A stretch of DNA of 62,504 bases from Nostocoides sp. Soil756 (GTDB taxonomy: Bacteria; Actinomycetota; Actinomycetes; Actinomycetales; Dermatophilaceae): assembly GCF_001428065.1 (NCBI RefSeq), contig NZ_LMSE01000004.1:183314-245817 (forward strand). The letters are read 5' to 3'. Below, piece after piece: positions 2,876 to 33,114 of the stretch. The notes under the pieces were generated by a model. It was given only the letters and a program-made list of their open reading frames with translations, made no database searches and was not told the origin of the DNA. The number at the start of each line of letters is the position of its first letter. Within the stretch, counting starts at the first letter, position 1. The position numbers and the translations under genes are program-made.

Positions 2876-4274
<1,399 letters not shown>

Positions 4275-4275
<1 letters not shown>

Positions 4276-12319: not shown

Positions 12320-12328
12320 GGAGCACTG

Positions 12329-14260: not shown

Positions 14261-15798
14261 CCTCCCTGCCTCTGCTCACGCTGATGATGGTCGTGCCGCT
14301 CGTCGGCGCGGTCGTCGTGGCCGCGCTGCCCTCGGGCGCCGCGCGCCACGCCCGGCAGATCGCGCTCGGGGCCTCGCTGGTCACCCTGGCGCTCGGCGTC
14401 GCCGCGTGGGTCGCCTTCGACAGCGGCTCCGACGCGATGTTCCAGCTCACCGAGACCCACTCGTGGATCCCGCAGTTCGGGGTGTCCTACGCGCTCGGGG
14501 TCGACGGGATCGCCCTGGCCCTCATCGTGATGGCGGTCATCCTCACCCCGGTCTGCCTGCTGGCGGCCTGGAACGACGTCGACGAGGCCGAGACCGGCCG
14601 GCTCAAGCGCTACTTCGCGCTGATGCTGGTGCTCGAGGCCTTCATGGTCGGCGTCTTCGCCGCCACCGACGTCTTCCTGTTCTACGTGTTCTTCGAGGCC
14701 ATGCTCATCCCGGTGTACTTCCTCATCGGGTTCTACGGCGGCCCGCAGCGGCAGTACGCGGCGGTCAAGTTCCTGCTGTTCTCGTTGGCCGGCGGCCTGA
14801 TCATGCTGGTCGCGGTCATCGCGCTCTACATCGCGGGCCCCGGCGGCCAGGACGGCTTCCTGGTCGAGAAGCTCATCGGCAACGTCGACGGCTCCCCGGT
14901 GGCGCTGCGCTGGATGTTCGTCGGGTTCTTCATCGCGTTCGCCGTCAAGGCCCCCATGTGGCCGGTGCACACCTGGCTGCCCGACGCTGCCACCGAGGCG
15001 CGCCCGGCCACCGCCGTGCTCCTCGTCGGCGTGCTCGACAAGGTCGGCACCTACGGGATGATCCGCTTCTGTCTCCAGCTCTTCCCGGAGGCGTCGAAGT
15101 GGGCCACCCCCGTCGTGCTCACCCTCGCCGTCATCTCGGTGATCTACGGAGCCCTGCTGGCCATCGGCCAGACCGACATGATGCGCCTCATCGCGTTCAC
15201 CTCGATCAGCCACTTCGGCTTCATCGTCCTGGGCATCTTCGCGATGACCAGCGTGGGGGGTGCCGGCTCGACGCTGTACATGATCAACCACGGGTTCTCG
15301 ACCGCCGGGCTGTTCCTCATCGCCGGCTTCCTGGTCACCCGCCACGGCAGCAAGCGCATCCCCGACTACGGCGGTTGGCAGCGGGTCACCCCGGTGCTCG
15401 CCGGGACCTTCCTCGTCGCGGGGCTCTCCTCGCTGGCGCTGCCGGGCCTGTCGTCGTTCGTGTCGGAGTTCCTGGTCCTGCAGGGCACCTTCATGCGCTA
15501 CAAGGTCGCCGCGGTCATCGCCACCCTGGGCATCGTCCTGGCGGCGCTGTACATCCTGCTGATGTACCAGCGCCTGATGACCGGCCCCAAGCCCGCGTTC
15601 GCCGAGGGCGCGGCCCCGCGTGACCTGAACCGGCGCGAGAAGTGGGTCGTGGCCCCGATCATCGCCTCGTTCGTCGTGCTGGGCTTCTACCCCAAGCCCG
15701 TGCTCGACCTCCTCAACCCGGCCGTGGACCGGACGATGCAGATCGTCGGCGTCACCGACCCGGCCCCCACCGTCGCAGCCCCCGGGAGCTCGAAGTGA
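14257..15798 (+). CDS. nuoM: NADH-quinone oxidoreductase subunit M
   Basis: Proton-pumping antiporter-like subunit, 513 residues and about 14 helices. Key charged residues are in [14 protein letters not shown] (Glu, helix 5) and [17 protein letters not shown] (Lys, helix 7). GTG start overlaps nuoL; stop overlaps nuoN. Confidence 0.97.
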
Positions 15799-17345: not shown

Positions 17346-18367
17346 GCCACCCGGCACCGGCGGCCCAGCGCGGCACCCCGTCGGTGCTGTCGCTGCCCGG
17401 CGCGAGCGCCGGTCTGCGTGAGCGGCTGAGCGCCGGGCTCGCGGCCGTCGAGGACCTCATCGCGCGTCGGGTCGAGCACGACGACCCGTTCGTGGCGCAG
17501 GCGAGCTCGCACCTGACGCTGGCGGGCGGCAAGCGGTTCCGGCCGCTGCTGACCCTGCTGGCGGCCGAGGTCGGCTCGGGCGTGAACGAGCAGGTGGTGG
17601 CGGCCGCCACGGGCGTCGAGCTCACCCACCTGGCCTCGCTCTACCACGACGACGTCATGGACGAGGCCGACGTACGACGCGGCGCCCCCAGCGCCAACGC
17701 CCTCTACGACAACTCCACCGCCATTCTGGTCGGCGACCTGCTCTTCGGCACCGCGTCCGACATCGTGGCCGACCTCGGGCCCCAGGCCGTCAAGATCCAG
17801 GCGCAGACGTTCGTGCGGCTGTGCTCGGGCCAGATCCGCGACGACCGCCCGTGCCCCGCGGGTCAGGACCCGGTCGAGTACTACCTGCACGTGCTCGAGG
17901 ACAAGACCGGCGTGCTCATCGCCACCGCCGCGCGCTACGGCGCCATGTTCGGCGGCTGCCCGCCGGCGGTGGTCGAGGTGCTGCGCGAGTACGGCGAGCG
18001 GCTCGGGGTGGCGTTCCAGCTCTCCGACGACCTCATCGACATCGCCTCCGAGGCCGACGAGACCGGCAAGACGCCCGGCACCGACCTGCGCGAGGGCAAG
18101 CGCACCCTGCCGGTGCTGTTCGTGCTGGCCTCGCAGGACCCCGCCGACGCGCGGCTCCAGGAGCTGCTGCGCGGCGACCTGACCCAGGACGGCCCGCTGG
18201 CCGAGGCGCTGGCGCTGCTGCGGGTGCACCCGGCGATGGAGCGGGCCCGTGAGCACGCCGCCGCGGTGGCGTCGCGGGCGCAGGCCGTCCTCGACCCGCT
18301 GCCGCCGAGCGAGGCCAAGGACGCGCTGCGTGCGCTGGCGGCCGGCGTCGTGACCCGCGTCGGCTGA
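17342..18367 (+). CDS. Long-chain polyprenyl diphosphate synthase
   Basis: Trans-prenyltransferase that condenses isopentenyl diphosphate onto an allylic primer. Of 341 residues. First aspartate-rich motif at Asp103-Asp107 (HDDVMDEADVRRG) and second at Asp229-Asp233 (DDLIDIA), plus GGKRFRPLLTLL. GTG start overlaps the nuoN stop, so it is likely the last gene of the nuo transcript; with menG upstream it most plausibly builds the menaquinone tail (HepT/IspB role). Chain length cannot be read from sequence with confidence. Confidence 0.9.
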   Translation: MSHPAPAAQRGTPSVLSLPGASAGLRERLSAGLAAVEDLIARRVEHDDPFVAQASSHLTLAGGKRFRPLLTLLAAEVGSGVNEQVVAAATGVELTHLASLYHDDVMDEADVRRGAPSANALYDNSTAILVGDLLFGTASDIVADLGPQAVKIQAQTFVRLCSGQIRDDRPCPAGQDPVEYYLHVLEDKTGVLIATAARYGAMFGGCPPAVVEVLREYGERLGVAFQLSDDLIDIASEADETGKTPGTDLREGKRTLPVLFVLASQDPADARLQELLRGDLTQDGPLAEALALLRVHPAMERAREHAAAVASRAQAVLDPLPPSEAKDALRALAAGVVTRVG

Positions 18368-20208: not shown

Positions 20209-21009
20209 TCAGGCGCTCCGCTCCGGACGCGCGAGGATGACCGAGGTCGACGTGTGGCGCAGGAGGGCCTCGGTCTCGACCGGGAGCGGACCGTCGGTCA
20301 CCAGCGCGTCGATCCGGTCCAGCGGGCAGAGGAGGACGGGGGCCGCGGTGGAGAACTTCGAGTGGTCGGCGAGCAGGACCACCCGGTCGGCCACGTCGAT
20401 GAGGGCGAGCTTCGTGGGTCGCTCGTTGTCGGTGGCGACGTAGACGCCGCGCTCGTCGACCGCCGCAGCCCCGAGGAACAGGGTGCCGACCCGCAGCCCC
20501 TTGACCGCGTCGACCGTCATCTGCCCCGCGAACGCCTGGCTCTCGTGGAGGAGCTCGCCGCCGAGGGCCACCACCCGCACGCGCCCGCGGCTGAGCAGCA
20601 GCTGGATCACGGGCACCGAGGGCGTCACCACCGTGCCGGCGAAGTCGGAGGAGAGGGCGCGGGCCACGGCGTAGGCGGTCGTGCCGGCGTCGATGGCCAC
20701 GGTGTCCTCGGGGCCGACGAACTCGTGGGCCTCCCGGGCGATCGCCGCCTTCGCGGCCGACTCCAGGTCCGACCGCGCGGCGAAGGCGGGGTTGTGCATG
20801 GGCCCGTGGAGCAGGCTCACCCCGCCGTGGACCACGCGTACCTCACCGCGCTCCTCGAGCTTGCGCAGGTCGCGCCGGACGGTCATGTCGGAGACCGCGA
20901 GGTCCTGGGCGAGGCTGGCCACGGAGATGAAGCCGGTCTCCTGCAGGCGCTCCAGGATCCAGCGCCGTCGACGGGGCGCGCTGACGTAGCGCATCGCCTT
21001 CTCGTCCAC
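20209..21009 (-). CDS. DeoR-family repressor of the divergent sugar operon
   Basis: 266 residues. N-terminal winged helix-turn-helix (RRRWILERLQETGFISVA followed by DMTVRRDLRKLEERG), then the DeoR sensor domain related to sugar-phosphate isomerases (DAGTTAYAVARAL, VVALGGELL, FLGAAAVDERGVY). AGGAGG seven nt upstream supports the GTG at 21009. It is divergent from a ten-gene sulfosugar-type operon and shares its promoter region. In E. coli the comparable operon is controlled by the DeoR-type YihW; by analogy this probably releases DNA when a phosphorylated (sulfo)sugar binds. Ligand not shown by sequence. Confidence 0.85.
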   Translation of the reverse strand: MDEKAMRYVSAPRRRRWILERLQETGFISVASLAQDLAVSDMTVRRDLRKLEERGEVRVVHGGVSLLHGPMHNPAFAARSDLESAAKAAIAREAHEFVGPEDTVAIDAGTTAYAVARALSSDFAGTVVTPSVPVIQLLLSRGRVRVVALGGELLHESQAFAGQMTVDAVKGLRVGTLFLGAAAVDERGVYVATDNERPTKLALIDVADRVVLLADHSKFSTAAPVLLCPLDRIDALVTDGPLPVETEALLRHTSTSVILARPERSA

Positions 21010-21044
21010 CACTCCACCTCCTGAGGCTCCCTGAAGAATACTCG

Positions 21045-21077
21045 ACACAAAGTGTTGACTTTCCAACATTCGTTGTT
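21045..21077. promoter_or_regulatory. Candidate DeoR operator cluster
   Basis: Overlapping symmetric elements lie in this AT-richer stretch: ACAC-AAA-GTGT (21045-21055), GTTG-N6-CAAC (21054-21067) and CAAC-N4-GTTG (21064-21075). They overlap the -35 and spacer of the forward promoter, which fits repression by the divergent DeoR protein. The operator is inferred from symmetry and position only. Confidence 0.5.
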
Positions 21078-21082
21078 AGGCT
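21055..21082 (+). promoter_or_regulatory. Promoter of the sulfosugar-type operon
   Basis: TTGACT (21055-21060), 16-nt spacer, TAGGCT (21077-21082). This is a good housekeeping-sigma promoter for an actinomycete. It would give a leader of about 45 nt before the kinase ATG at 21135. Confidence 0.6.
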
Positions 21083-21134
21083 CCCCACATCGCCCGGGTC
21101 ACCGCCGACCGGGGAGTCTCGAAGGAGAGCCGCG

Positions 21135-22055
21135 ATGAGTCAGACCGCCACCCGCGACGGGAAGGCCCCGACCGTGTTCGTCGGAGCGGCCACCATGGAC
21201 TCCATCGCCGTCGTCGCCGGGTACCCGGGCCCGGACGAGCGGGTCGTGGCCGAGGGGCTGACGTTCGCGGGTGGGGGGCCGGCGGCGACCGCGGCCGTGA
21301 CCGCCGCGCGACTGGGGGTGTCCTCCGCGTTCGTGGGCACCGTGGGGGACGACCTCGACGGGGAGCGCATCCTGGCCGAGCTGCAGAGCGAGGGGGTCGA
21401 CGTCTCCGGCGTCACCCGTGCTCACGGCCGGAGGTCGGCGGCGAGTGTCATCGTCGTCGACCGCACCCACGGCACCCGTGCGATCTGCGCCCGGCCCGGC
21501 CCCCCGGTCGACACCTCCCGCGGCGCCGACCTCATCGCGGCGGCCGAGTGGGTCCACGCCGACCACCTGGGATGGGCCGCCGTACGGGCCCTGGTCGACC
21601 CCGGCTCGGACGGTCGACCGGCCCTGTCGGTGGACGCCGGCAACCCGATCCCCGACTTCAGCCCTCACGGGGTGGACCTCTACGTCCCGACCGTCGCCGC
21701 GCTGCGACGCGACCACGGCGATGTGCCACCCGAGGCGCTGGTCCGGGCCGCCCACGCCCAGGGCGCCCGGCGGGTGGTCGCGACCGACGGGGGGCGCGGC
21801 TCCTACGGCGCCGACCCGGGCGCCGACGTGGTCCACGTGGCGGCCGTCCCGACCGACGTGGTGAGCACCCTCGGGGCCGGCGACGTCTTCCACGGAGCGC
21901 TCGTCGCCGCCCACGTGCGCGGCGTGCCGCTCGAGGATGCCCTCCGCTACGCCAACGCGGTGGCGGCGGCGTCGTGCACCGGCATCGACGGCCGCTCGGC
22001 CATCCCCACCCACGACCGGGTGCGCCGTCACCTCGGCCCCGTCCCTCTCACCTGA
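21135..22055 (+). CDS. yihV: YihV-like PfkB kinase (probable 6-deoxy-6-sulfofructose kinase)
   Basis: PfkB/ribokinase-family sugar kinase, 306 residues. GGGPAATAAVTAARLG near residue 47 and the catalytic STLGAGDVFHGAL (Asp250) are nearly the same as in E. coli YihV, which phosphorylates sulfofructose at O1. The neighbouring YihT-like aldolase supports this substrate. First gene of the operon; AAGGAG lies 7 nt upstream of the ATG. A different keto-sugar substrate remains possible, since sulfonate recognition was not modelled. Confidence 0.78.
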   Translation: MSQTATRDGKAPTVFVGAATMDSIAVVAGYPGPDERVVAEGLTFAGGGPAATAAVTAARLGVSSAFVGTVGDDLDGERILAELQSEGVDVSGVTRAHGRRSAASVIVVDRTHGTRAICARPGPPVDTSRGADLIAAAEWVHADHLGWAAVRALVDPGSDGRPALSVDAGNPIPDFSPHGVDLYVPTVAALRRDHGDVPPEALVRAAHAQGARRVVATDGGRGSYGADPGADVVHVAAVPTDVVSTLGAGDVFHGALVAAHVRGVPLEDALRYANAVAAASCTGIDGRSAIPTHDRVRRHLGPVPLT

Positions 22056-22077
22056 CCCCGTCCGCAAGGAGACCCCC

Positions 22078-22968
22078 GTGTCCGCACCGACACCGACCCC
22101 CGCCCCGCCTGACCTGTCCCGGCTGACCCGACCCGGCGGCGGCTTCGCCATGCTCGCCGTCGACCAGCGCGAGGCGATGCGATCCATGTTCGCCGAGCAC
22201 CAGTCGGCCCCGGTCCCCGACGACCAGCTGCGGCGCTTCAAGGTGCTCGCCACGCGCATCCTCAGCCCCTACGCGAGTGCCGTGCTCGTCGACAAGCAGT
22301 TCGCCTTCGACGCGGTCGTCGCCGAGGGTGCCGTGGCCCCCTCGTGTGGGCTCATCGCGGCCGCCGACCACTTCATCGCGGGGAACGGCGAGCACGTCAC
22401 CGACGTCGAGATCGACGAGACGGTCGACCCCGAGGAGGTCCGGGCGCAGGGCGCCGTCGCCATGAAGCTCCTCGTCATCCACCGTCCCGACGGCGACCCG
22501 GACGTCCGCGCCGACATGGTCCGCCGGTTCGTCGACCGCTGCCACTCCGCCGGCCTGCTCAGCATCATCGAGCCGGTGGCGAAGGCCCCGCGCGACGGGC
22601 GCACCTGGGACTGGAACGCGTGCGTCATCGAGGCGGCCCGTGAGCTCGGCTCGCTGGGGGCCGACCTCTACAAGGCCGAGGTGCCCTACAAGGGGGAGGG
22701 GGAGGCGAGCGACATCCGCCGCGCCTGCGCCGAGATCACCGAGGCCGTGGCCTCGCCGTGGGTCGTCCTCTCCTCGGGGGTCCCGACCGAGCTGTTCCCG
22801 CGGGCCGTCGAGCTCGCCTGTGAGGCCGGTGCCTCGGGCTTCCTCGCCGGGCGTGCCGTGTGGGCCTCGGTCGTCGGGAGCGCCGACCTCGAGCAGGACC
22901 TCCTCCAGGTGTCGGTGCCCCGCCTGCAGCGGCTGGCCGAGATCGTCGACTCCGGGGTGTCCCGATGA
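22078..22968 (+). CDS. yihT: YihT-like class I aldolase (probable sulfofructose-1-phosphate aldolase)
   Basis: Schiff-base aldolase of 296 residues predicted to split 6-deoxy-6-sulfofructose 1-phosphate into DHAP and 3-sulfolactaldehyde. Compared with E. coli YihT from memory, long runs match: GGFAMLAVDQREAM, ILSPYASAVL, GADLYK with Schiff-base Lys199, LSSGV, and GASGFLAGRAVW. This makes it the strongest functional anchor for a sulfoglycolysis operon. GTG start with AAGGAG upstream; 22 nt after the kinase. The related LacD/tagatose-bisphosphate aldolases are a less likely alternative. Confidence 0.83.
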   Translation: MSAPTPTPAPPDLSRLTRPGGGFAMLAVDQREAMRSMFAEHQSAPVPDDQLRRFKVLATRILSPYASAVLVDKQFAFDAVVAEGAVAPSCGLIAAADHFIAGNGEHVTDVEIDETVDPEEVRAQGAVAMKLLVIHRPDGDPDVRADMVRRFVDRCHSAGLLSIIEPVAKAPRDGRTWDWNACVIEAARELGSLGADLYKAEVPYKGEGEASDIRRACAEITEAVASPWVVLSSGVPTELFPRAVELACEAGASGFLAGRAVWASVVGSADLEQDLLQVSVPRLQRLAEIVDSGVSR

Positions 22969-24413
22969 CCGGTCCCCGCCCCCGGGTGGCGCTGGTCGCG
23001 ACCGCCCGCCCCACCTTCGCCGTCGACGTCGCGAGGGAACGAGCCACGCAGGCACGCGAGCTCCTCGTCGCGCTCGGTGCCGAGGTGACGGGCCCGTCCG
23101 GACTCGTCATGACGCCGGAGGACCTGGACGAGGCCGCCGGCTACTCCTTCGACGACGTCGACCTCGTCGTCAACGTGTGCGCCAGCTTCTCCGACGCCAG
23201 CCCGGCCCTGCGCCTCTACTCCGAGGTGGACGTACCGATCCTCCTCTGGGCCTTCCGAGAGCCGGGCCCGGTCGGGGACCGGCTCTGGCTCAACAGCCTG
23301 TGCGGCGCGAACCTCTTCGGGCACGCCCTCGTCGTCCACGCCGGCCGGGTGCCCCACCTCGTCCACGGCGACCCGGGCGAACCCGCTGTCCGGGAGGCGC
23401 TCACCCGGGCCCTCGCGGGCGACCTCCCGGCCGCCCCCGCCCTGCCCGACGTCGTCGGCGAGCGCGCCGGGGACCCCGACGCGGTCGAGCGCGCGCTCGG
23501 GGCCCTGCGGGGTCGCACCCTCGGTCTCGTCGGCGACGCCCCCACCGGGTTCACCCCCAGCCGGTACGACGCCGACCTGCTCGATGAGTTCTTCGGCATC
23601 GGGGTCGACGAAATCTCGGTCGAGGACATGTTCCAGCGGGTCGCGGCGGTCGACGAGGGGCAGCGGGAGGACGAGCGCCGCGCCGCCGCCGCCGCCCAGC
23701 CGTCCCTCGCCACCCTCGATCCCGCCCAGGTGGCGCTGTCGGCGGGCGTCACGTCGGCGATGCGGAGCTGGGGGGAGGACTCCGGCCTCTCGGGGATGGC
23801 GATCCGCTGCTGGCCCGAGTTCCCGTCCTCGCTCGGCGTCTGCCCGTGTTCCTCGCTGTCGCGGCTCGCCGACGCCGGTACGCCCACGGCGTGTGAGCGG
23901 GACGTCTACGGGGCGGTCACGATGATGCTCCTGGAGGCGCTCGGGTCCGGCACCACCTACCTCGTCGACACCGTCGACCTCGAGACCGACGACAACCTCG
24001 TGCGCCTGTGGCACTGCGGGGCCGCCGCGACGTCGCTGGCCGCCGACCCCTCGGACGCCCGTCAGGACGTCCACTGCAACCGCAAGATCGGGGTCGCCGG
24101 GAACTTCCCGCTGCGCACCGGCCCGGTCGTGATGGCGCGGCTCACCGAGGACCCGGAGCGCGGGGGCCTGCGCCTCCTCCTCGCCTCGGGCGAGTCCGTC
24201 CCGGAACCGAACCGGTTCCAGGGCAACACCGCCGCCGTTCGCCTGGACACCTCCGCGGAGGCGTTCGTCCAGGCCCTCGTCACCGGCGGCTTCCCGCACC
24301 ACACGGTCCTCGCCTGGACCGACGTACGACCCGCCCTCCGCACCGCAGCCGACCGGCTCGGTGTCCCCGTCATCGAGTTCACCACCGCAGAGTCCACAAG
24401 GAGTGCCTCATGA
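22965..24413 (+). CDS. FucI/AraA-type isomerase (probable sulfoquinovose isomerase)
   Basis: 482 residues with the L-fucose isomerase fold. Likely metal ligands are the Glu of TACERDVYG, an Asp in VDTVDLETDDN and the His of LWHCG, matching the Glu-Asp-His set of FucI. In this operon it would interconvert sulfoquinovose and sulfofructose, the step done in E. coli by the unrelated AGE-fold YihS, which is not encoded here. The N-terminal half (residues 1-170) is a Rossmann-like domain. ATGA overlap with the aldolase. Aldose-ketose isomerase is secure; the substrate is inferred. Confidence 0.75.
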   Translation: MTGPRPRVALVATARPTFAVDVARERATQARELLVALGAEVTGPSGLVMTPEDLDEAAGYSFDDVDLVVNVCASFSDASPALRLYSEVDVPILLWAFREPGPVGDRLWLNSLCGANLFGHALVVHAGRVPHLVHGDPGEPAVREALTRALAGDLPAAPALPDVVGERAGDPDAVERALGALRGRTLGLVGDAPTGFTPSRYDADLLDEFFGIGVDEISVEDMFQRVAAVDEGQREDERRAAAAAQPSLATLDPAQVALSAGVTSAMRSWGEDSGLSGMAIRCWPEFPSSLGVCPCSSLSRLADAGTPTACERDVYGAVTMMLLEALGSGTTYLVDTVDLETDDNLVRLWHCGAAATSLAADPSDARQDVHCNRKIGVAGNFPLRTGPVVMARLTEDPERGGLRLLLASGESVPEPNRFQGNTAAVRLDTSAEAFVQALVTGGFPHHTVLAWTDVRPALRTAADRLGVPVIEFTTAESTRSAS

Positions 24414-25717
24414 ACAAGAACGCCTTCGGTCAGCCGCTCAGCCGCCGCACCGCACTGCAGCTCCTCGGGGTCGGCGGTGCCGGTGCCGCCCTCACCGCCT
24501 GCGCCGGCCCGGGGAGCACCGCGGGATCCACCAGCGCCGCGTCCGCCCCCGCCACCGGGAAGCCGACCGGGGCGATCTCCTTCGCCCACTGGCGCGCGGA
24601 GGACAAGGACGTCTTCGCCAAGCTCATCTCCGCCTTCCAGTCGGCCACTCCGGACGTGACCGTGCGCCAGGACATCTCGCCCTCGAACGACTACCAGTCC
24701 TCGGCCCTGCAGCGGATCCGGGGCGGTTCCGTCGGCGACGTCTTCACGGCCTTCCGCGGCGCGCAGTTCGTCGACATGGTCAAGGCCGGCGTGTACACGG
24801 ACATGTCGAAGCAGGCGGTCGTGCAGCAGTACGAGCCCTCGCTCATCACCGCGGGCCAGCAGGACGGCACGCAGTACGGCTTCCCGTACCAGGTCGTCTT
24901 CAACATGCCCGTGACGAACGAGGACATCATCGGCACGGCGACGGGCGGCACCCCGCCCAAGGACTGGCAGTCCTTCCTCGACCTCTGCGACAAGCTCAAG
25001 TCCCAGGGGCTGGTGCCGATCGCGTGGCCCGGCGGAGACCCCGGCAACGCCGGCCAGCTCTTCAACTCGATGGTCATGAACAACGCTCCGAGCGACGACA
25101 TGTGCGCGAAGATCGAGTCGGGCGAGTACAAGTGCACCGACGACTGGTTCCTCACGACGCTGAAGCAGTACCAGCAGCTCAAGCCCTACTTCCAGCCGAA
25201 CTCGACGGGCACGGCGGTCGAGCCCTGCCAGCAGATCTTCGCGACGAAGAAGGCGGCGATGCTCGCCACGGGCAGCTACCACATCGCGGCCATCCGCGCC
25301 CTCGGGGCGACGTTCCCGATGAACGTCATCTCCCCGATCACGACCTCGGCCGAGAAGGCGAAGTACGAGGGCATCTACAACGCCACCTTCATCCTGGGGG
25401 TGAACTCCCACTCCCAGCACCAGGCCGCGGCCTCGGCGTGGCTGGAGTTCCTCTCCCAGCCGGCGAACGCAGGGGAGTACGCGAACGGCACCAGCCAGCA
25501 CGTCACGGTCAAGGGCGTCGAGTACACGAACCCGGACCTGAAGGCCCTGGCGCCCTGGCTGCAGAAGAAGACCCTGCTCGCCCCCCGCTTCCAGTTCAAC
25601 AACCTCGACATCCGCTCCGCCGTCGAGGGTGCCTGCATCGCGGTGGTCGGCGGCAAGTCGCCCGACGCCGCGGCCGCGGACGCCCAGCGCGTGGTGGACC
25701 AGCAGCGCAGCCAGTAG
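24410..25717 (+). CDS. ABC sugar-binding lipoprotein (probable sulfosugar receptor)
   Basis: Extracellular solute-binding protein family 1, 435 residues. N-terminus has a twin-arginine signal (SRRTALQLLG) and a lipobox LTAC, so it is a membrane-anchored lipoprotein, probably Tat exported. FAHWRAEDKDVF and the following pattern fit sugar-binding CUT1 receptors. ATGA overlap with the isomerase, AAGGAG upstream. Ligand inferred from the operon; residues for a sulfonate cannot be assigned by eye. Confidence 0.85.
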   Translation: MNKNAFGQPLSRRTALQLLGVGGAGAALTACAGPGSTAGSTSAASAPATGKPTGAISFAHWRAEDKDVFAKLISAFQSATPDVTVRQDISPSNDYQSSALQRIRGGSVGDVFTAFRGAQFVDMVKAGVYTDMSKQAVVQQYEPSLITAGQQDGTQYGFPYQVVFNMPVTNEDIIGTATGGTPPKDWQSFLDLCDKLKSQGLVPIAWPGGDPGNAGQLFNSMVMNNAPSDDMCAKIESGEYKCTDDWFLTTLKQYQQLKPYFQPNSTGTAVEPCQQIFATKKAAMLATGSYHIAAIRALGATFPMNVISPITTSAEKAKYEGIYNATFILGVNSHSQHQAAASAWLEFLSQPANAGEYANGTSQHVTVKGVEYTNPDLKALAPWLQKKTLLAPRFQFNNLDIRSAVEGACIAVVGGKSPDAAAADAQRVVDQQRSQ

Positions 25718-25730
25718 GAGGAGGAGCGAG

Positions 25731-26684
25731 ATGACCGAGACCCTCCAGGAGAGGTCCCCCCGCGTCGGTGACGGCGAGGCTCGCACCGGGCGGCGGCGTC
25801 GGTCCGCCGCCGCCCGGACCCACCCGGGCCTGTGGCTGTTCCCCCTCCCGGCGCTCGTCCTCTACGTGGTGTTCTTCGCCGGGCCGACGATCCAGGCGTT
25901 CCAGTACTCCATCACCGACTGGGACGGTTTCAGCGCCGCCTACCAGAACGTCGGGGCCACGAACTTCGAGAACATCGCGACGAACGACGACCTCTTCCTG
26001 GGCGCGGCGACGAACAACCTCAAGTTCCTCCTCGTCGTCGTCATCGCCCAGACCGTCCTCTCGCTCCTCCTCGCGGTGCTGCTGCAGCGCAACTCCCGGT
26101 CGTCCACGACCCTGCGGGCCCTGTTCTTCCTGCCGGCGATCCTGTCGTCGGTGTCGGTGGCCTTCGTGTGGAAGTTCATGTACGACCCCAACTTCGGACT
26201 CATCAACCAGGTGCTCGGCGGGATCGGCCTGGACGGCTTGAAGAGCAGCTTCCTCGGCAACGCCTCGACGGCCATCTACTGGGTCGCGCTGACACAGGTG
26301 TGGGCGCACGCGGGCCAGCTGATGGTGATCTTCGTCGCCGGACTCCAGCAGATCCCGGAGGAGCTCTACGAGTCGGCGGCCCTCGACGGTGCGAGCCAGT
26401 GGCAGCGGTTCCGCTTCGTCACGTGGCCCCTCATCGCGCCGGCGACGGCGATCGTCGTGGCGTACACCACGATCCAGTCGTTCAAGGCCTTCGACCTCAT
26501 CCTGGGCCTCGGCGGCAACCCCCCGAAGGGCTCCCTCGACATCCTGTCCACCCGCATCTACACGACGTTCACGAACTCACGGTTCGGTTACGCGGCAGCG
26601 GAGTCCATCGTGTTCATGGTGATCATCGCCCTCGTCAGCTTCCTGCAGCGCAGGGCCGTGCGACTCACCCAGCACGGCGTTTGA
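25731..26684 (+). CDS. ABC sugar permease, MalF-like
   Basis: 317 residues, six predicted helices after a hydrophilic N-terminus rich in Arg. The cytoplasmic EAA loop is EELYESAALDGASQWQRF. Strong ribosome site GGAGGAGG directly upstream of the ATG. Partner of the next permease and the preceding receptor. No ATPase gene accompanies them; a shared MsiK-like ATPase or the one at 58404 would have to serve. Confidence 0.9.
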   Translation: MTETLQERSPRVGDGEARTGRRRRSAAARTHPGLWLFPLPALVLYVVFFAGPTIQAFQYSITDWDGFSAAYQNVGATNFENIATNDDLFLGAATNNLKFLLVVVIAQTVLSLLLAVLLQRNSRSSTTLRALFFLPAILSSVSVAFVWKFMYDPNFGLINQVLGGIGLDGLKSSFLGNASTAIYWVALTQVWAHAGQLMVIFVAGLQQIPEELYESAALDGASQWQRFRFVTWPLIAPATAIVVAYTTIQSFKAFDLILGLGGNPPKGSLDILSTRIYTTFTNSRFGYAAAESIVFMVIIALVSFLQRRAVRLTQHGV

Positions 26685-26697
26685 AAGGAGTGTCGTC

Positions 26698-27513
26698 ATG
26701 GCCGCTTCCCTCACCCGGCGCCTGGTCCTCGGCATCTACGCCGCCATCATCGTCGTGCCTCTCGTGGTCGTCGTCGCCGGCTCGTTCAAGACCACCCAGC
26801 AGCTGTTCCGCTCGCCGTTCGGCCTGCCGTCATCGCTGGCTCCGACGAACTACCGCACCGTCCTCACCGACGCGAGCATGTCGACGGCGTTCGTCAACAG
26901 CGTGATCGTGACCGGCGCCGCGGTGGCCCTGACCCTGGCCATCGGCAGCCTGGCCTCCTACGGCCTCGCCCGCATCCCCGGGTGGCGCGGATGGGTGCTC
27001 TACGGCTTCCTCGTCCTGGGGATGGCCGTTCCCGCCCAGTCGAACATGATCCCGCAGTACGTCCTCTTCCAGAACCTGGGGCTGCTCGACAGCCGTGTCG
27101 GGCTGATCCTGATCGAGATCGTGGCGGCCCTGCCGGTCGCGGTCTTCATCCTGACCGGGTTCATGCGCACGCTGCCTCGCGAGCTGTTCGAAGCCGGGCT
27201 CGTCGACGGCGCCGGCCCCTGGCGCACCTACCGCTCCATCGCGCTGCCGGTCTCGCTGCCGTCCCTGGCGGCCACCGCGATCTTCCTGTTCGTCATCCAG
27301 TGGAACGACCTGCTCTACCCCCTGCTCTTCATCCACGATCCGACGAAGACGACCCTCCCCCTGGCGCTGCTGAACTTCCAGGGCGAGTTCCTGACCAACT
27401 ACCCCCTGCTCTTCACGGGGGTCATCGTGGCCTCGACCCCCTTGGTCATCGCCTACGTCCTCCTCCAGCGCTACTTCGTCGCCGGCATGACCGCCGGCTC
27501 CGTGAAGGGATGA
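26698..27513 (+). CDS. ABC sugar permease, MalG-like
   Basis: 271 residues, six predicted helices, EAA loop RELFEAGLVDGAGPWRTY. Starts 13 nt after the first permease with AAAGGAG upstream and overlaps the glycosidase ATG at its end. CUT1-type permease; forms the transmembrane pair with the previous gene. Confidence 0.9.
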   Translation: MAASLTRRLVLGIYAAIIVVPLVVVVAGSFKTTQQLFRSPFGLPSSLAPTNYRTVLTDASMSTAFVNSVIVTGAAVALTLAIGSLASYGLARIPGWRGWVLYGFLVLGMAVPAQSNMIPQYVLFQNLGLLDSRVGLILIEIVAALPVAVFILTGFMRTLPRELFEAGLVDGAGPWRTYRSIALPVSLPSLAATAIFLFVIQWNDLLYPLLFIHDPTKTTLPLALLNFQGEFLTNYPLLFTGVIVASTPLVIAYVLLQRYFVAGMTAGSVKG

Positions 27514-29837
27514 CCCGGTCCATGGCCGACACCCTCCTCCTGCGGCACGTCCGGCAGGTCCGTACCGACCCCCACGGCTCGAGCGTGACCCTCGACGTCG
27601 ACGCGATCCGTGGCGTCCAGCTCGGGATCATGCCCGGCTGGCTCACCGGCGAGCCGCCGGAGGAGCAGGGGGTGGAGACGGGGATGCCCAACCTGCCCCA
27701 CCTGGACCTCCCACCCACGGACGTGACGCCCTACGCCCTTCGGGTCACGTCCCCCGCCCCGGCGACGGTGCGCCTCACCCTCGCTCCGTCCGACTCGGCC
27801 GCGCTGGACGACGACGGCACGGGCCTGGGCATCGTCGTCGACCCCGACCCCGCCCCGGTCCCGCTGCGGGTCGAGGAGGGTGAGGACGAGGTCGTGGTCA
27901 CCGCCGACCGGGTGCGCCTGCGGGTCGGCCGGCACCCGTTCACCCTCACCGTCGAGGACTCCGGCAGCGGGGAGGTCCTCCTGCGGTCCGCCCACCGACT
28001 GCGCCAGGTCGCGGGGCTGATGATGGCCCCGACCGCGCTCGTCGACGCATCGGGGCTGAGCCTGAACCTCGAACTGTCCCCCGACGAGGACGTCCTCGGC
28101 TTCGGGGAGCAGTTCGGGCGGCTGGTCAAGAACGGGCAGCGTCTCGTCCTGCGCAGCGAAGACGCCTGCGGCACCGGGACGGGCCTGGCCTACAAGCCGG
28201 TCCCGGTGTGGCACTCCACCACCGGGTACACCGGCTTCCTCAACACCGGGGCCGTCGTCACCGCCGACGTCGGGCACCAGCGGCCCTCCGTCCTCGGCCT
28301 CACGGTCGCCGACGACGCCCTCGACCTCTACGTCGTCGCCGGCCCCTCACCCAAGGACCGCCTGACGACCTACACGGCACTCACCGGCCGAGCCGAGGTC
28401 CCCCCGCTGTGGGCGTTCGGCTACTGGATGGGCCGGTGCCGGTACCACGACCGGGAGGAGATGCTCGGCGTCGCCCGCACGATGCGCCGCCACGCCGTCC
28501 CGCTCGACGTGCTCCACCTCGACCCCGACTGGCTCGTCGTCGACCGGCTCAACTGCGACTTCATCTGGAACGAGGAGCGGTTCGGGAACCGGCGCGACTT
28601 CGTCGAGGCCCTCGAGGAGGAGTCGGTCCGGCTCTCGGTGTGGGAGCTGCCCTACCTCGACCCCGCGAGTCCGCGGTTCGCCGAGGCGGAGGAGAAGGGC
28701 TTCCTCGTCCGGCGCACCGACGGCACGCTGGCCGCCATCCAGAAGACCCCCACGCCGGACGGCCGGATGCGCGCGCTCGTCGACTTCACCAACCCCGAGG
28801 CCGCGGCCTGGTGGCAGGCGATGCACGAAGCGTTCCTCGACGACGGGGTCGCGGTGTTCAAGACCGACTTCGGCGAGGCGCTGCCCGACGACGCCGCGCT
28901 CCACGACGGCACCCCGGCCCACCAGGCGCACAACCTCTACCCGCTGCGCTACAACGCGACGGTCAGCGACGCCATCCGCCGGTACACCGGTCGCGCCCCG
29001 CTCGTCTGGGGCCGCAGCGGCTGGGCCGGCTCGCAGCGCTACCCGGGGCAGTGGGGTGGCGACGCGGAGTCCACGGTCGTCGGCATGCAGGCGACCGTGC
29101 GGGGAGGGCTCTCCTACGCCCTCAGCGCCCCGGGGCTCTGGAGCCACGACATCGGCGGCTTCTTCGGGCCCGAGCTCACCCCGGGCCTCTACGTCCGGTG
29201 GACCCAGATGGGTGCGCTCTCGCCCCTGATGCGCGCCCACGGGCTGCGTCCGCGTGAGCCGTGGGCCTTCGGGGACGAGGCGCTCGAGGTGGCACGGCGA
29301 TGGGTGCGGCTGCGGTACTCGCTGCTCCCCACCCTGTGGCAGGTGGCGCACGAGGCGGCCTCCCACGGCTGGCCCGTCATGCGCCCGCTCGCCCTGGAGT
29401 TCCCCGAGGACCCGGTCGCGGCGCAGGTCGACGACGTGTTCATGGTCGGGTCGGACCTCCTCGTGGTCCCGGTGTTCGACGACGGCACGGCACCGGTGCG
29501 CCGGCGCTTCTACGTGCCGGAGGGGACCTGGCACGACATCGTGACGGGGGAGACCTACGACGGGCCCCGGTTCCACGAGGCCGAGCTCGCCCTCGATGCG
29601 ATGCCCGTCCTCGCCCGGGCGGGGTCCCTCATCCCCCGGATCGAGATCGACGAGGCGGTCCGTCACACCGACGACCTCATCGGGCGGCCGTGGACGCTGC
29701 ACGTGTTCGGGCCCACCGCCGAGAAGCACACCCTCGTCGGGTTCGACGGCGCCCCGCTCCACGTCACGCTCTCCGGCGACGCCGTCGCCGCCACCGGTGG
29801 CCAACCCGTCCAGACCCGTGCCGTGCGCCATGGATGA
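27510..29837 (+). CDS. GH31 alpha-glycosidase
   Basis: Retaining glycoside hydrolase, 775 residues. Beta-rich N-terminal domain, then a (beta/alpha)8 barrel with nucleophile Asp453 (FKTDFGE) and acid/base Asp518 (QWGGD), and a C-terminal beta domain. It lacks a signal peptide, so it acts in the cytosol. In this operon it would free sulfoquinovose from sulfoquinovosyl glycerol, but its motifs (KTDFGE, RSGWAGSQRYPGQWGGD, CDFIWNEERF) look closer to YicI alpha-xylosidases than to E. coli YihQ. Substrate is therefore open. The ATG at 27510 overlaps the permease stop; an ATG at 27522 is also possible. Confidence 0.85.
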   Translation: MTRSMADTLLLRHVRQVRTDPHGSSVTLDVDAIRGVQLGIMPGWLTGEPPEEQGVETGMPNLPHLDLPPTDVTPYALRVTSPAPATVRLTLAPSDSAALDDDGTGLGIVVDPDPAPVPLRVEEGEDEVVVTADRVRLRVGRHPFTLTVEDSGSGEVLLRSAHRLRQVAGLMMAPTALVDASGLSLNLELSPDEDVLGFGEQFGRLVKNGQRLVLRSEDACGTGTGLAYKPVPVWHSTTGYTGFLNTGAVVTADVGHQRPSVLGLTVADDALDLYVVAGPSPKDRLTTYTALTGRAEVPPLWAFGYWMGRCRYHDREEMLGVARTMRRHAVPLDVLHLDPDWLVVDRLNCDFIWNEERFGNRRDFVEALEEESVRLSVWELPYLDPASPRFAEAEEKGFLVRRTDGTLAAIQKTPTPDGRMRALVDFTNPEAAAWWQAMHEAFLDDGVAVFKTDFGEALPDDAALHDGTPAHQAHNLYPLRYNATVSDAIRRYTGRAPLVWGRSGWAGSQRYPGQWGGDAESTVVGMQATVRGGLSYALSAPGLWSHDIGGFFGPELTPGLYVRWTQMGALSPLMRAHGLRPREPWAFGDEALEVARRWVRLRYSLLPTLWQVAHEAASHGWPVMRPLALEFPEDPVAAQVDDVFMVGSDLLVVPVFDDGTAPVRRRFYVPEGTWHDIVTGETYDGPRFHEAELALDAMPVLARAGSLIPRIEIDEAVRHTDDLIGRPWTLHVFGPTAEKHTLVGFDGAPLHVTLSGDAVAATGGQPVQTRAVRHG

Positions 29838-30930
29838 CCGCTGGGCCGACCTGGCCGACAAGCTCGTCGTCGTCGCGCGGCTCGCGGACTCCGCGGGGGT
29901 GAGCCGGGTCGTCATCCGGGAGCCGGCCACCCTGGCGTGGTTGTTCGGCGCACGGGTCCACGTCCCCCAGACCCTCGACGCCGCCTGCCTCGACGTGCTC
30001 GTCGAGCCCGGTGTCGGCGGCGCGCCGCCCGGGCTGACCGTCGTGACCAACGCCATCGAGGCGCCGCGTCTGCGGGACACCGAGCTCGCGGGGCTGCCGG
30101 CGTCCTGGGTCGTCGTGCCGTGGTGGGAGCCGCGGGACACCCGGCTGCCCACCGGCGCGGGCACGGGCAGCGACCGGCCCCGCGGGGCCGACGTCGACCT
30201 GTCCGCCCGTCTCACCGCGGCGCGCCGGGTGCTCACCCCCGGTGAGCAGCGACGGCTCGCCCAGGTGGCCCGGGACGCGGCCGCCGCCGCGACCCGCGCC
30301 GCACACCGCATCACCCCGGAGCACAGCGAGTACGCGGCGGCCGGTGCCGTCGCCGACGAGCTGCTGTCCGCGGGTCTCGACCCGGTCGTCCTCATGGTCG
30401 CCGGCGGTGACCGGGGCGGGCGCCACCGGCATCCGCTGCCGACGACAGGACCCCTGGGCGAGCGCGCCATGCTCGTCTGCTGCGCCCGCCGCCACGGGCT
30501 CGTCGCGAGCGTGACGCGGTTCGTGAGCTTCGCCCCGCTCTCGGCGGCGGACCGGGACGCCTACCTGGCCCTCCTCGAGGTCGAGCGGGTCTTCCTCGAC
30601 CGTAGCCGCCCGGGCGCGCGCCTCGGCGACGTCGTCGCCGCCGGAACGGCCGCCTACGCCGGGGCCGGGCTGGAGCCCACCGAGTGGCACCGCCACCACC
30701 AGGGCGGCCTGACAGGCTGGCAGCCGCGGGAGTTCCCCGCGCACGCCGGCAGCGACGTGCGCCTCGCCGCGGGCATGGCCGTCGCGTGGAACCCCAGCAC
30801 CGACCGCTGGAAGGTCGAGGACACCGCCCTCGTCCGCGCCGGAGGTCCCGAGCTCCTCGTGGACGACCCGGCCTGGCCCGCCCTCACCGTCGGCGCCCGC
30901 CGGCGACCCGATGTCCTCGTCCGCACCTGA
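29830..30930 (+). CDS. M24 (pita-bread fold) protein, probably lacking peptidase metal sites
   Basis: 366 residues related to Xaa-Pro aminopeptidase/creatinase proteins: an N-terminal creatinase-like domain and a C-terminal M24-like domain. Active members need two Asp, one His and two Glu. Here the expected Asp positions read MLVCCARRHGLVASVTRF, without those Asp; the His (EWHRHHQGG) and a late Glu (KVEDTALV) remain. It is tightly coupled (stop of the glycosidase overlaps), so it belongs to the operon, but its role is unknown: perhaps a non-proteolytic hydrolase, a binding protein or an oligomer partner. Confidence 0.6.
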   Translation: MDDRWADLADKLVVVARLADSAGVSRVVIREPATLAWLFGARVHVPQTLDAACLDVLVEPGVGGAPPGLTVVTNAIEAPRLRDTELAGLPASWVVVPWWEPRDTRLPTGAGTGSDRPRGADVDLSARLTAARRVLTPGEQRRLAQVARDAAAAATRAAHRITPEHSEYAAAGAVADELLSAGLDPVVLMVAGGDRGGRHRHPLPTTGPLGERAMLVCCARRHGLVASVTRFVSFAPLSAADRDAYLALLEVERVFLDRSRPGARLGDVVAAGTAAYAGAGLEPTEWHRHHQGGLTGWQPREFPAHAGSDVRLAAGMAVAWNPSTDRWKVEDTALVRAGGPELLVDDPAWPALTVGARRRPDVLVRT

Positions 30931-30944
30931 CCCAAGGAGACCCC

Positions 30945-32384
30945 GTGACCGACCCCACGCCCACCGCAGCCCGCCACCTCATCGACGGGCGCTGGGAGGA
31001 CTCGGCCGGGACCGTCGAGGTCCGCAACCCCGCTGACGGGGGTCTCGCCGGCACGGTCGCCTGGGGCACGTCCGAGGACGTGCACCGGGCTGCCGACGCC
31101 GCGGCCGCCGCCCTGGACGCCTGGTCGTCGCGCCCGGCGCGCGCTCGCGCCGACGTCCTGCGGGCGGCAGCGGACGTGGTGGCGGAGCGGGCGCACGACA
31201 TCGGGCGCCTCCTGGCGATCGAGGCGGGCAAGCGGCTGCCCGAGGCCGTCGCCGAGGTGGGCTTCTCGGCGGAGTACTTCCGCTGGTTCGCCGAGGAGGT
31301 GCGCCGACCCGAGGGCGCCGTCGTGCCGCACGAGGTCCCGGGCCGGCGTCACCTCACGCTCCGCCGCCCGGTGGGCGTGGTCGCCTCGTTGTCGCCGTGG
31401 AACTTCCCGTGCTCGATCCAGGCGCGCAAGCTCGCCCCGGCGCTCGCGGCCGGGTGCACGGTCGTGGCGCGGGTCTCGGAGAAGGCGCCGCTGGCGGTGA
31501 CCGAGCTCGTCCGGTGCCTCGTCGACGCGGGCGTCCCCGACGGCGTCGTCAACCTCGTCCACGGCCCGGCCCGCGAACTGACGACCACCCTCGTGGGTCA
31601 CCGCGCCGTACGGGCCGTCAGCTTCACCGGCTCGACCCGGGTCGGGCGCGAGATCATGGCCACGGCCGCGGAGCGGGTCGTCCGGCCCCTCCTCGAGCTC
31701 GGCGGGGACGCCGCCTTCATCGTCTTCGAGGACGCCGACATCGATGCCGCCGTCGAGGGCGCGATGCTCGCGAAGTTCCGCAACACGGGGCAGTCGTGCA
31801 TCGCCGCCAACCGGTTCGTCGTCCACGAGCGGGTCTACGAGGAGTTCACCGGACGGTTCGTCGAGGCGATCGACCGGATGACCGTCGGGGACGGGCTCGC
31901 GGACCCCTGCCCGGACCTGGGGCCCGTCATCGATGCCGAGCGGGCCGACGCCGTCCGAGGGATGGTCTCGCAGGCCCTCGACGCCGGCGCGACGCAGCTG
32001 ACGCGGTCCTTCGACCTCCCGACCGGGGGAGCCTACGTCGCCCCGACCCTGCTCGCGGACGTCCCGACGAGCGCCGCGCTGGGGTGCGAAGAGGTGTTCG
32101 GCCCCGTGGCCGCCGTGTTCCGGTTCAGGGACGAGGAGGAGGCGCTCGCGCTGGCCAACGCCACCGAGATGGGCCTCGCGGGGTACTTCTGGTCCCGAGA
32201 CGTCGGGCGCATCTGGCGGGTCGCGGAACGCCTCGAGGTCGGCATCATCGGGGCCAACACCCCACTGCCGAGTGTCGTCTTCGCGCCCATGGGCGGGGTC
32301 AAGCAGTCCGGGCTCGGCCGCGAGGGTGCGGCAGCCGGGCTCGAGGAGTTCCAGGACGTGCGGTACCTCGCGCTGGGACTGTGA
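30945..32384 (+). CDS. GabD-like aldehyde dehydrogenase (probable sulfolactaldehyde dehydrogenase)
   Basis: NAD(P)-dependent aldehyde dehydrogenase of 479 residues. Catalytic Cys285 in GQSCIAANR and Glu in LLELGGDAAFIVFEDAD; both sites fit the succinate-semialdehyde dehydrogenase group, which includes known 3-sulfolactaldehyde dehydrogenases. It would oxidise the aldolase product to sulfolactate and give NAD(P)H, in place of the E. coli reductase YihU. GTG start with AAGGAGA upstream. Confidence 0.75.
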   Translation: MTDPTPTAARHLIDGRWEDSAGTVEVRNPADGGLAGTVAWGTSEDVHRAADAAAAALDAWSSRPARARADVLRAAADVVAERAHDIGRLLAIEAGKRLPEAVAEVGFSAEYFRWFAEEVRRPEGAVVPHEVPGRRHLTLRRPVGVVASLSPWNFPCSIQARKLAPALAAGCTVVARVSEKAPLAVTELVRCLVDAGVPDGVVNLVHGPARELTTTLVGHRAVRAVSFTGSTRVGREIMATAAERVVRPLLELGGDAAFIVFEDADIDAAVEGAMLAKFRNTGQSCIAANRFVVHERVYEEFTGRFVEAIDRMTVGDGLADPCPDLGPVIDAERADAVRGMVSQALDAGATQLTRSFDLPTGGAYVAPTLLADVPTSAALGCEEVFGPVAAVFRFRDEEEALALANATEMGLAGYFWSRDVGRIWRVAERLEVGIIGANTPLPSVVFAPMGGVKQSGLGREGAAAGLEEFQDVRYLALGL

Positions 32385-32385
32385 C

Positions 32386-33114
32386 GTGGCGGTCGACCAC
32401 CTGCTCCTGCTCCCGGTCGGGGTCCTCGCGGGGGCGCTGACCCAGCGGGTCACGGGGGTCGGCTTCGCGCTCGTCAGCGCGCCCCTGCTGGTCCTGGCCG
32501 CAGGCCCGTTCGAGGGCATCGTCCTGGCCAACCTGCTCGGTCTCATCGTCTGCGCCGTCGTCCTCGCCCGCACCTGGCGGGACGTCGAGTGGCGTCGCGG
32601 CATCCTCCTCGTGATCCCGGCGCTGGTCGTCATCCCGGTCGGCGCGTACGTGGCGCGCAACGTGCCGGGGCCACCCCTGCTCGTGCTCATCGGGAGCCTC
32701 GTCCTCGTCGCGCTGGCCCTGGTCCGGTTCACCTCCCGGCTCACCGCCCTCCACGGCCCGGGGGGCGCGATCGCTGCGGGGGCGTCCAGTGGCTTCATGA
32801 ACGTGACGGCGGGGGTCGGGGGTCCGGCGATGGTGCTCTACGCCAGGAGCACCCGCTGGGAGCACCACCGGTTCCTCGCGACGTTCCAGTTCTACTCGAT
32901 CATCGTCAACGCCGCGTCGCTGACCGCCAAGGGGGGCATCGGACAGCTCGCCCCGGAGGTCGTCGCGGTGGCCGTGGCCGCCCTGGCGGTGGGCCTGGTC
33001 GTGGGCGACCTTCTCGCGCGGCGGGTGAGCAGGGCGCGGGCCGGCCAGGCGGTCATGGTCCTCGCGGTGGCGGGGGCGGTCTCGACGGTCGTCAAGGGCC
33101 TGTTCGCGCTGTGA
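32386..33114 (+). CDS. TauE/SafE-family exporter (probable sulfolactate exporter)
   Basis: 242 residues, about eight transmembrane segments in two repeats; typical TauE/SafE features such as GFALVSAPLL and GFMNVTAGVGGPAMVLY. The family exports sulfite, sulfoacetate or other organosulfonates, so as the last operon gene it probably removes sulfolactate. GTG start 1 nt after the dehydrogenase stop. Confidence 0.78.
   Translation: MAVDHLLLLPVGVLAGALTQRVTGVGFALVSAPLLVLAAGPFEGIVLANLLGLIVCAVVLARTWRDVEWRRGILLVIPALVVIPVGAYVARNVPGPPLLVLIGSLVLVALALVRFTSRLTALHGPGGAIAAGASSGFMNVTAGVGGPAMVLYARSTRWEHHRFLATFQFYSIIVNAASLTAKGGIGQLAPEVVAVAVAALAVGLVVGDLLARRVSRARAGQAVMVLAVAGAVSTVVKGLFAL

Follow-up and report, generated by a model that had tools for sequence, protein, structure and literature searches.

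Sulfoquinovose (SQ) is a plant sulfosugar that represents a very large pool of organic sulfur. The operon described here is predicted to degrade it, and lies at positions 20209-33114 of a 62,504-nt stretch of DNA from Nostocoides sp. Soil756 (contig NZ_LMSE01000004.1). The whole stretch, a section of one contig of the 3.47 Mb genome, is referred to below as the window. Among the closest described systems is the sulfoglycolytic Embden-Meyerhof-Parnas (sulfo-EMP) pathway of E. coli, encoded by yihOPQRSTUV, with which the operon has in common a YihV-like kinase, a YihT-like aldolase and the proposed intermediates. Unlike the E. coli set, it contains an SftI-like isomerase, a GabD-like dehydrogenase, an ATP-binding cassette (ABC) importer, TauE, a YicI-like glycosidase of family GH31 and an M24-like gene. 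No relative of YihS, YihR, YihU, YihO or YihP was found at positions 10001-45000 of the window, in agreement with the first-pass annotation of the sequence, which had set the cluster apart from that of E. coli in isomerase, C3 fate, uptake and export.

The sulfo-EMP clusters of Arthrobacter AK01 and AK04 contain, as the window does, YihV, YihT, a GabD-type sulfolactaldehyde dehydrogenase (SLADH), an ABC importer and, in AK04, TauE, and sulfolactate was the product in culture (PMC8873060). They differ from the window operon in having a YihS isomerase and an IolG (Gfo/Idh) homologue, and no GH31 sulfoquinovosidase was identifiable in them (PMC8873060). The NAD-dependent glycosidase SqgA of AK01 is the founding GH188 sulfoquinovosidase, and its structure resembles those of Gfo/Idh-type oxidoreductases (PMC10755693). 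The available portions of these two accounts make no mention of an M24-like gene. The sulfo-EMP2 pathway of Bacillus urumqiensis shares with the window operon its SqvD/SftI-type isomerase, a type belonging to sulfo-EMP2 and to the sulfoglycolytic transaldolase (sulfo-TAL) and transketolase (sulfo-TK) pathways (PMC9594981, PMC10599462, PMC12890257). Sulfo-EMP2 proper uses SqiK (PfkA type), SqiA (class II) and a putative mutarotase, SqvB, whereas the window genes are of other families, the kinase being PfkB and the aldolase DeoC/LacD by Pfam.

It had been left undecided in the first-pass annotation whether this mixture of genes was already described. Actinobacterial clusters of a 'hybrid' sulfo-EMP/EMP2 type are in print (PMC10599462, PMC12890257), the second of these papers citing Sharma et al. 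2023 in this connection, and the operon is therefore a variant of such hybrids and not a new kind. Neither Phycicoccus nor Kribbella nor Streptomyces is named in the accessible text of PMC10599462, and M24 does not appear in that of PMC12890257.

Core enzymes and proposed pathway

The operon consists of a divergent DeoR regulator gene and ten close-packed plus-strand genes, bounded by the regulator gene on one side and by rarD on the other (Table 1). Gene positions follow from the reading frames, the start codons and the bases immediately preceding them, and gene names from Pfam and NCBIfam. Gaps within the row are 22 bp or less and several genes overlap, which bears out the tight operon claimed in the first pass. 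Every gene named there was present; the gene at 29830-30930 had been omitted. Gene identity, order and conservation, together with the conservation of key residues in the isomerase and the dehydrogenase, can be read directly.

Over 285 residues the aldolase shares 52% identity with E. coli YihT, and three YihT entries head its matches in the PDB with 301-307 bits. The next best are a DUF2090 protein (73 bits) and tagatose-bisphosphate aldolases (69 bits or less), so that a tagatose-type aldolase, the outcome which the first pass had named as refuting its proposal, is disfavoured by sequence. The kinase has YihV as its best PDB match as well, although at only 36% identity to the E. coli protein. 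By sequence the two are thus an aldolase of the sulfo-EMP YihT type and a PfkB-type YihV kinase.

The isomerase is of the FucI type, as had been proposed, and no yihS match occurs in the part of the window searched. Its sole NCBIfam match, at 267 bits (E = 2.5e-79), is to the model for the sulfoquinovose isomerase SftI, whose cut-off of 700 it does not reach, and no PDB sequence was matched at E up to 1. In a profile alignment with E. coli FucI, itself weak (probability 19.5, E = 0.0012), E337, D361 and H528 pair with E311, D335 and H446 of the window protein. The FucI positions are those we take to be its metal ligands, and the alignment confirms the letters E, D and H there. All three residues are invariant in the 30 sequences aligned, ie the window protein and those from 29 of 32 loci which passed a length and frame filter.

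The GabD-like dehydrogenase proved to be of the succinate semialdehyde dehydrogenase (SSADH) type. Its R161, R279, C285 and E251 match by motif, with a constant offset of 10, the SLADH residues Arg171, Arg289, Cys295 and Glu261 of RlGabD (PMC10599462). ABC uptake, also claimed in the first pass, is represented by a solute-binding protein and two permeases. The assignment of the putative exporter to the TauE/SafE family was confirmed by Pfam.

The GH31 assignment of the glycosidase was likewise confirmed, with the amendment that the protein is nearer to YicI than to YihQ. Its best PDB matches are 5f7c (351 bits) and YicI, compared with 131-146 bits for YihQ-type entries; across 566 alignment columns it shares 28% identity with E. 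coli YihQ. Of the NCBI models, PRK10658 scores 482 bits and PRK10426 245 bits, which we take to be the YicI and YihQ models, respectively. The protein was aligned with 24 homologues (16 actinobacterial and eight from Chloroflexota), YihQ and YicI. It has the GH31 fold in common with the last two and retains the catalytic aspartate pair. Sulfonate recognition in YihQ presumably depends on Q288, R301, W304 and Y508. The window protein has D, C and F in place of Q288, W304 and Y508, the C being T in six of the 16 actinobacterial homologues. Only the R301 position matches; the corresponding R346 is kept in all 16 actinobacterial and in none of the eight Chloroflexota homologues, in a part of the alignment which is flanked by gaps and uncertain. 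An ordinary YihQ sulfoquinovosidase was rejected because these recognition residues are not kept. The enzyme is a candidate for a second branch of GH31 sulfoquinovosidases outside the YihQ family.

With a probability of about 0.88, we infer that the operon serves the import and hybrid sulfo-EMP sulfoglycolysis of SQ or SQ glycosides, as the first-pass annotation had proposed. The closest matches of aldolase, kinase and isomerase support this, as do gene exchanges among related loci that fit a C3 sulfonate. SQ glycosides would be taken up by the ABC importer, and alpha-SQ would be released by the GH31 enzyme; the M24-like protein is proposed to speed the interconversion of the SQ anomers. The isomerase would convert SQ to sulfofructose, which the kinase would phosphorylate to sulfofructose 1-phosphate. 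The aldolase would cleave this to dihydroxyacetone phosphate (DHAP) and sulfolactaldehyde, the latter would be oxidised to sulfolactate by the dehydrogenase, and TauE would export the sulfolactate. Substrates and step directions, like the roles given to the GH31, M24-like and TauE proteins, are those predicted from the gene assignments.

Related loci and the fate of the C3 sulfonate

Genomes were searched with the isomerase profile via two short peptide patterns, which is not exhaustive, and gene content was read from tblastn tables. The 30 loci found comprise 21 actinobacterial (L057-L077) and nine Chloroflexota (L078-L086) examples, several of them on short contigs. The first pass had suggested looking for the same gene order in other actinobacteria, and the set recurs to a varying extent in the 21 loci. 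It is complete in G004 and G006, of the same genus as the window genome, and in G140, and is rearranged in G226, where TauE was not seen on a stretch that ends inside the aldehyde dehydrogenase (ALDH) gene. This recurrence puts the arrangement beyond chance. The aldolase is present in 20 of the 21 actinobacterial loci, the kinase in 17 (it was not seen in L064, L065, L072 and L074), the regulator also in 17 and the ALDH in 14. A second region of G006 (L055) carries relatives of the operon aldolase (42%), kinase (42%) and ALDH (36%).

TauE occurs in 14 of the 21 loci. Two others, L068 and L070, carry a pair of SuyA/SuyB-like genes and a 2-hydroxyacid dehydrogenase gene, and no locus combines this pair with TauE. 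Neither is seen in L064, L065, L066, L069 and L073, all of which except L065 lie on short or one-sided stretches. In the same way GH31 is found in 15 loci and a Gfo/Idh gene in two Arthrobacter loci (L063 and L067), again never together, with neither in view in four. These exclusions are as expected for a sulfolactate C3 product. Export as against cleavage of sulfolactate, and oxidation as against reduction of sulfolactaldehyde, would account simply for the exchanges. NCBIfam gives only inositol-dehydrogenase-type matches under cut-off for the Gfo/Idh genes of L063 and L067, which we infer to encode GH188-like glycosidases.

At L068:2276-6116, and in L070, SuyA/SuyB-like, ALDH and 2-hydroxyacid dehydrogenase genes stand near the hybrid sulfo-EMP core without TauE; these organisms may combine sulfolactate formation and desulfonation in one cell. 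In Chloroflexota, the loci with the related isomerase have SuyAB-like genes in eight of nine cases and the same YicI-like branch of GH31 in eight of nine. A metagenome-assembled genome titled Propionibacterium sp. has a YihU-like reductase (31%) and a PfkA-family kinase (L074:6355-8413). No ALDH or PfkB relative is present on its 14.9 kb contig, which ends inside GH31, so that an ALDH may lie beyond it. This locus is possibly a fermentative version of the pathway that forms 2,3-dihydroxypropane-1-sulfonate (DHPS).

Several observations weigh against the assignment to SQ. The isomerase scores under the cut-off of its only model, there is no ABC ATPase gene inside the operon, and L065 and L072 show no kinase relative. 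The label SuyAB-like holds at family level only, as these genes have Pfam GD_AH and SAF domains and NCBIfam matches only galactarate dehydratase, far under cut-off. The PfkA protein of L074 is above the cut-off for the NCBI pyrophosphate (PPi)-dependent fructose-6-phosphate phosphotransferase and hence need not be a sulfofructose kinase. SSADH uses the same arginine pair for succinate semialdehyde (PMC10599462), so that the residues in the window ALDH are necessary rather than sufficient for SLADH identity. With most of the YihQ sulfonate signature lost, the sulfosugar role of the GH31 enzyme rests on context.

The operon might instead serve another sulfosugar or a related acidic 6-deoxyhexose, such as sulfofucose or sulforhamnose, with SQ as a secondary substrate. 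Several aldoses are substrates of FucI-family isomerases, the operon GH31 is not of the YihQ type, and a sulfofucose pathway reportedly exists in Paracoccus. However, that route is said not to be of the EMP type, the isomerase matches the sulfoquinovose isomerase model only, and the aldolase and kinase are nearest to SQ enzymes, which makes this alternative improbable. A little less probable again is the degradation of an ordinary, tagatose- or inositol-like sugar, with the likeness to YihT and YihV incidental. PfkB, DeoC/LacD and SSADH are indeed broad families, but the distance in bits between YihT and the tagatose-bisphosphate aldolases, the SftI-like isomerase and the exchange of TauE and SuyAB-like genes among the loci all argue against it. 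Hybrid sulfo-EMP degradation of SQ or its glycosides remains the preferred reading.

The M24-like protein and its neighbours

The eighth gene of the row is assigned to Peptidase_M24 by Pfam, above cut-off, and has no match in NCBIfam. Residues were compared in 43 members of its family with E. coli PepQ and PepP only. In the local alignment, 42 members have V/A, S/N/T/A/C, G and N, respectively, in place of the PepP ligands D261, D272, H355 and E384, and keep only the fifth, E407, which is E330 of the window protein; the 43rd member, in L063, is a fragment gapped at the ligands. The PepP residues are taken here as the metal ligands, the alignment confirming D, D, H, E and E at those positions. 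W37, H201, H289, Q291, G292, G293, W320, N321, P322, K328 and E330 are near-invariant in the family, and an alignment of 24 members has 23 invariant columns, with identity to the window protein as low as 24%.

An AlphaFold model built from 11 sequences (predicted local distance difference test, pLDDT, 90.6; predicted template modelling score, pTM, 0.89) matched mycobacterial PepE, prolidases, the ectoine hydrolase DoeA, creatinase and Spt16 in Foldseek, ie the protein is predicted to have the pita-bread fold. A search of the PDB with the family profile gave prolidases as the best match (69 bits) and found no solved structure of the family itself. Of 24 members scanned against Pfam, 22 matched Peptidase_M24 and 13 matched Creatinase_N; there were no other matches, and none showed homology to PF01263. 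The predicted fold is shared with M24 peptidases, creatinase and DoeA, and the M24-like protein differs from them in the loss of the metal site, in its invariant residues and in its sugar-gene context. The Pfam match and the prolidase-like fold, and the M24-like gene of L128, which adjoins genes resembling oligopeptide ABC genes by eye, would suit a working Xaa-Pro peptidase placed in the operon by chance. With four of five metal ligands replaced, a new invariant set in their place and repeated placement beside sugar genes, the peptidase was rejected and is the least credible of the alternatives considered here.

The M24-like gene is present in 11 of the 21 actinobacterial SQ loci. It is absent from six with visible flanks (L065, L066, L068, L070, L072 and L075), and in four on short or one-sided stretches its presence is undecided (L064, L069, L073 and L074). 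Whole genomes were searched for five of the six negative loci and gave no match or only weak matches of the ordinary M24 type. Three Arthrobacter loci have the M24-like gene without GH31, and a role as sulfoquinovosidase substitute was considered. It was set aside because two of them carry the Gfo/Idh gene, a potential glycosidase, the other (L071) starts inside the kinase gene, and GH31 is present in eight of the 11 loci with the M24-like gene. A GH116-family gene adjoins the regulator at L065:5658-8105, L066:2993-5797, L070:4894-7410 and L072:5742-8123; it is thus found in four of the six informative loci lacking the M24-like gene and in none of the 11 having it. The two may be alternatives, or shared ancestry may explain the pattern.

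Beyond the SQ loci, members were found in 31 of 396 Actinomycetota genomes (above about 110 bits) and in 33 of 201 Chloroflexota genomes (E up to 1e-25). These are lower bounds, as only five or 10 candidates per genome were scored. Within one family, f34, 16 genomes have the gene (15 of the 31, plus G371, where it is a fragment at a contig edge). For 14 of these, galK is no more than about 2.2 kb away, the evidence in G440 being an 18-residue end of galK at a contig edge. The other two are G432 and G185, of which G185 has a short galT remnant. G344, G196, G302, G228 and G389 have galT, a galE-like gene (40-50% identity to E. coli GalE) and galK all near the M24-like gene, and GalM is the one Leloir enzyme missing; the orders include galT-galE-galK-M24 and galT-M24-galE-galK.

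Other neighbourhoods are of the arabinose type. In L120 the gene stands between araA and an opposite-strand FGGY kinase, and in L189 and L200 it adjoins an isomerase gene of the araA or FucI type, accompanied by FGGY and class II aldolase genes. In the Chloroflexota L186, L193, L198 and, by coordinates, G492, it adjoins galK or galT. An IlvD/Edd-family dehydratase and sugar ABC genes are nearby in L131 (Pfam) and L130 (by eye), and glycerate-kinase, dihydrodipicolinate synthase (DHDPS)-family, enolase-family, NAD-epimerase, Gfo/Idh or ALDH genes in L117-L119. In L132 it lies directly 5' of a class II aldolase gene and, between the two, a distant relative of the window isomerase, which is 22% identical and matches nothing in Pfam. 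The same row, from an AT-rich genome (L132:896-6969), has a DeoR-like gene (by eye), a PfkB piece and a gene of the URO-D family ahead of the M24-like gene, and is possibly a further aldose or sulfosugar pathway. The 16 Chloroflexota loci include five with galK, galT or arabinose-type neighbours, one (L190) with a glycerate-kinase-like neighbour by eye and 10 with no recognised sugar gene; the same is true of L121 and L125 in Actinomycetota, beyond the short galT remnant already mentioned.

The common feature of the recognisable neighbourhoods is a free aldose whose first enzyme is sensitive to the anomer supplied, which leads us to propose that the protein is a mutarotase. The metal-less M24-fold family would be a new, non-homologous class of aldose 1-epimerase in Actinomycetota and Chloroflexota, acting on SQ, on arabinose and on galactose (where it would stand in for GalM in galT-galE-galK operons), and probably in uronate or other oxidative sugar pathways. 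The proposal is tentative, and we put it at somewhat less than an even chance. GalM and YihR, of PF01263, would have the same function and share the galK/galT/galE neighbourhood, and differ in Pfam family and fold. In the accessible literature that was searched, neither an M24 gene in sulfoglycolysis nor a mutarotase of M24 or creatinase fold came up.

The distribution of PF01263 was compared with that of the M24-like gene. In f34, 13 genomes combine the M24-like gene with a strong match to galK; 12 of these lack PF01263 (G371 has one), including G302, G082, G207, G239, G196 and G261, which are given as 93-100% complete. All six f34 galK genomes examined that lack the M24-like gene have PF01263, but they were chosen for that and so give no evidence of complementarity. 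No PF01263 gene was found near the gal genes in any of the six. A p value of 0.0003 for f34 is invalid and was not used, the 26 genomes having been chosen mainly for holding either gene, with most genomes that have neither thereby excluded; the odds given to the mutarotase were lowered slightly on this account. In the wider samples PF01263 was found in 7/31 Actinomycetota genomes with the M24-like gene and 141/365 without it (p = 0.08), in 8/33 and 57/168 Chloroflexota genomes (p = 0.32), and in 7/32 and 49/108 of the Chloroflexota genomes with galK (p = 0.02). Chloroflexota galK itself was found in 32/33 genomes with the M24-like gene and 108/168 without (p = 5e-5). These p values take no account of relatedness or of how complete the genomes are. 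In the wider samples the anticorrelation of the two genes is weak or absent, while in Chloroflexota the M24-like family accompanies galK.

Against a mutarotase, the window genome has three PF01263 proteins and many members of the family have no sugar-gene neighbours. A PF01263 protein is encoded elsewhere in all 17 SQ-cluster genomes tested, so that a dedicated mutarotase is not strictly needed. It is about equally likely to be true or false that the protein is something else in the same sugar operons: another hydrolase, a sugar-binding regulator, or an enzyme cleaving glycosylamines or esters. Hydrolases that work without metal, such as creatinase, and proteins that are not enzymes, such as Spt16, also have M24 folds, and both the six SQ loci without the gene and the 10 Chloroflexota loci without a recognised sugar gene fit such a role. 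On the other side is its recurrence near genes handling free aldoses, including galactose operons in which GalT, GalE and GalK are present but GalM was not seen.

Gene table, surroundings and implications

Table 1. Genes of the predicted SQ operon, with window coordinates and supporting matches
Gene product	Coordinates	Strand	Evidence
DeoR-family regulator	20209..21069	-	Pfam DeoRC and HTH_DeoR; divergent; relative in 17/21 loci
PfkB-family kinase, YihV-like	21135..22055	+	Best PDB match 7ag6, sulfofructose kinase, E = 8e-34
Class I aldolase, YihT-like (DeoC/LacD family)	22078..22968	+	PDB YihT entries 7ag7, 1to3 and 7ag1, E about 1e-90
FucI-superfamily isomerase, SftI/SqvD-like	22965..24413	+	NCBIfam NF048012; Pfam Fucose_iso_C
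ABC solute-binding protein	24410..25717	+	SBP_bac_1, SBP_bac_8; weak TAT_signal match, E = 0.063
ABC permease	25731..26684	+	BPD_transp_1
ABC permease, MalG/UgpE type	26698..27513	+	NCBIfam GlcU/UgpE/MalG-type matches, all under cut-off
GH31 alpha-glycosidase, YicI-like	27510..29837	+	Catalytic D453 and D518; PDB YicI 344 bits
M24-like 'pita-bread' protein without metal site	29830..30930	+	Peptidase_M24, 1.4e-10; eighth gene of row
ALDH, GabD-like	30945..32384	+	SSADH-type; SLADH residues
TauE/SafE-family exporter	32386..33114	+	PF01925, 6e-22; relative in 14/21 loci

The DeoR-family regulator is probably a sulfosugar-responsive repressor. Upstream of the operon, window positions 2875-18367 hold respiratory complex I genes (49 kDa, NuoG-type and NuoL-type subunits), followed by a gene resembling polyprenyl synthase by eye. 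At 54333-61773 there are genes for a glyoxalase-family protein, a solute-binding protein, an ABC ATPase and an E1/transketolase-type dehydrogenase, which may form an unrelated cluster for uptake and oxidation.

The bacteria in which operons of this type point to probable sulfoglycolysis include Phycicoccus-like bacteria, Kribbella, Streptomyces and Pseudonocardia. If the M24-like protein is a mutarotase, it would supply the Leloir step that is missing where a genome has no PF01263 protein, and many genes, in a family that Pfam would label as peptidase, would receive a corrected annotation.

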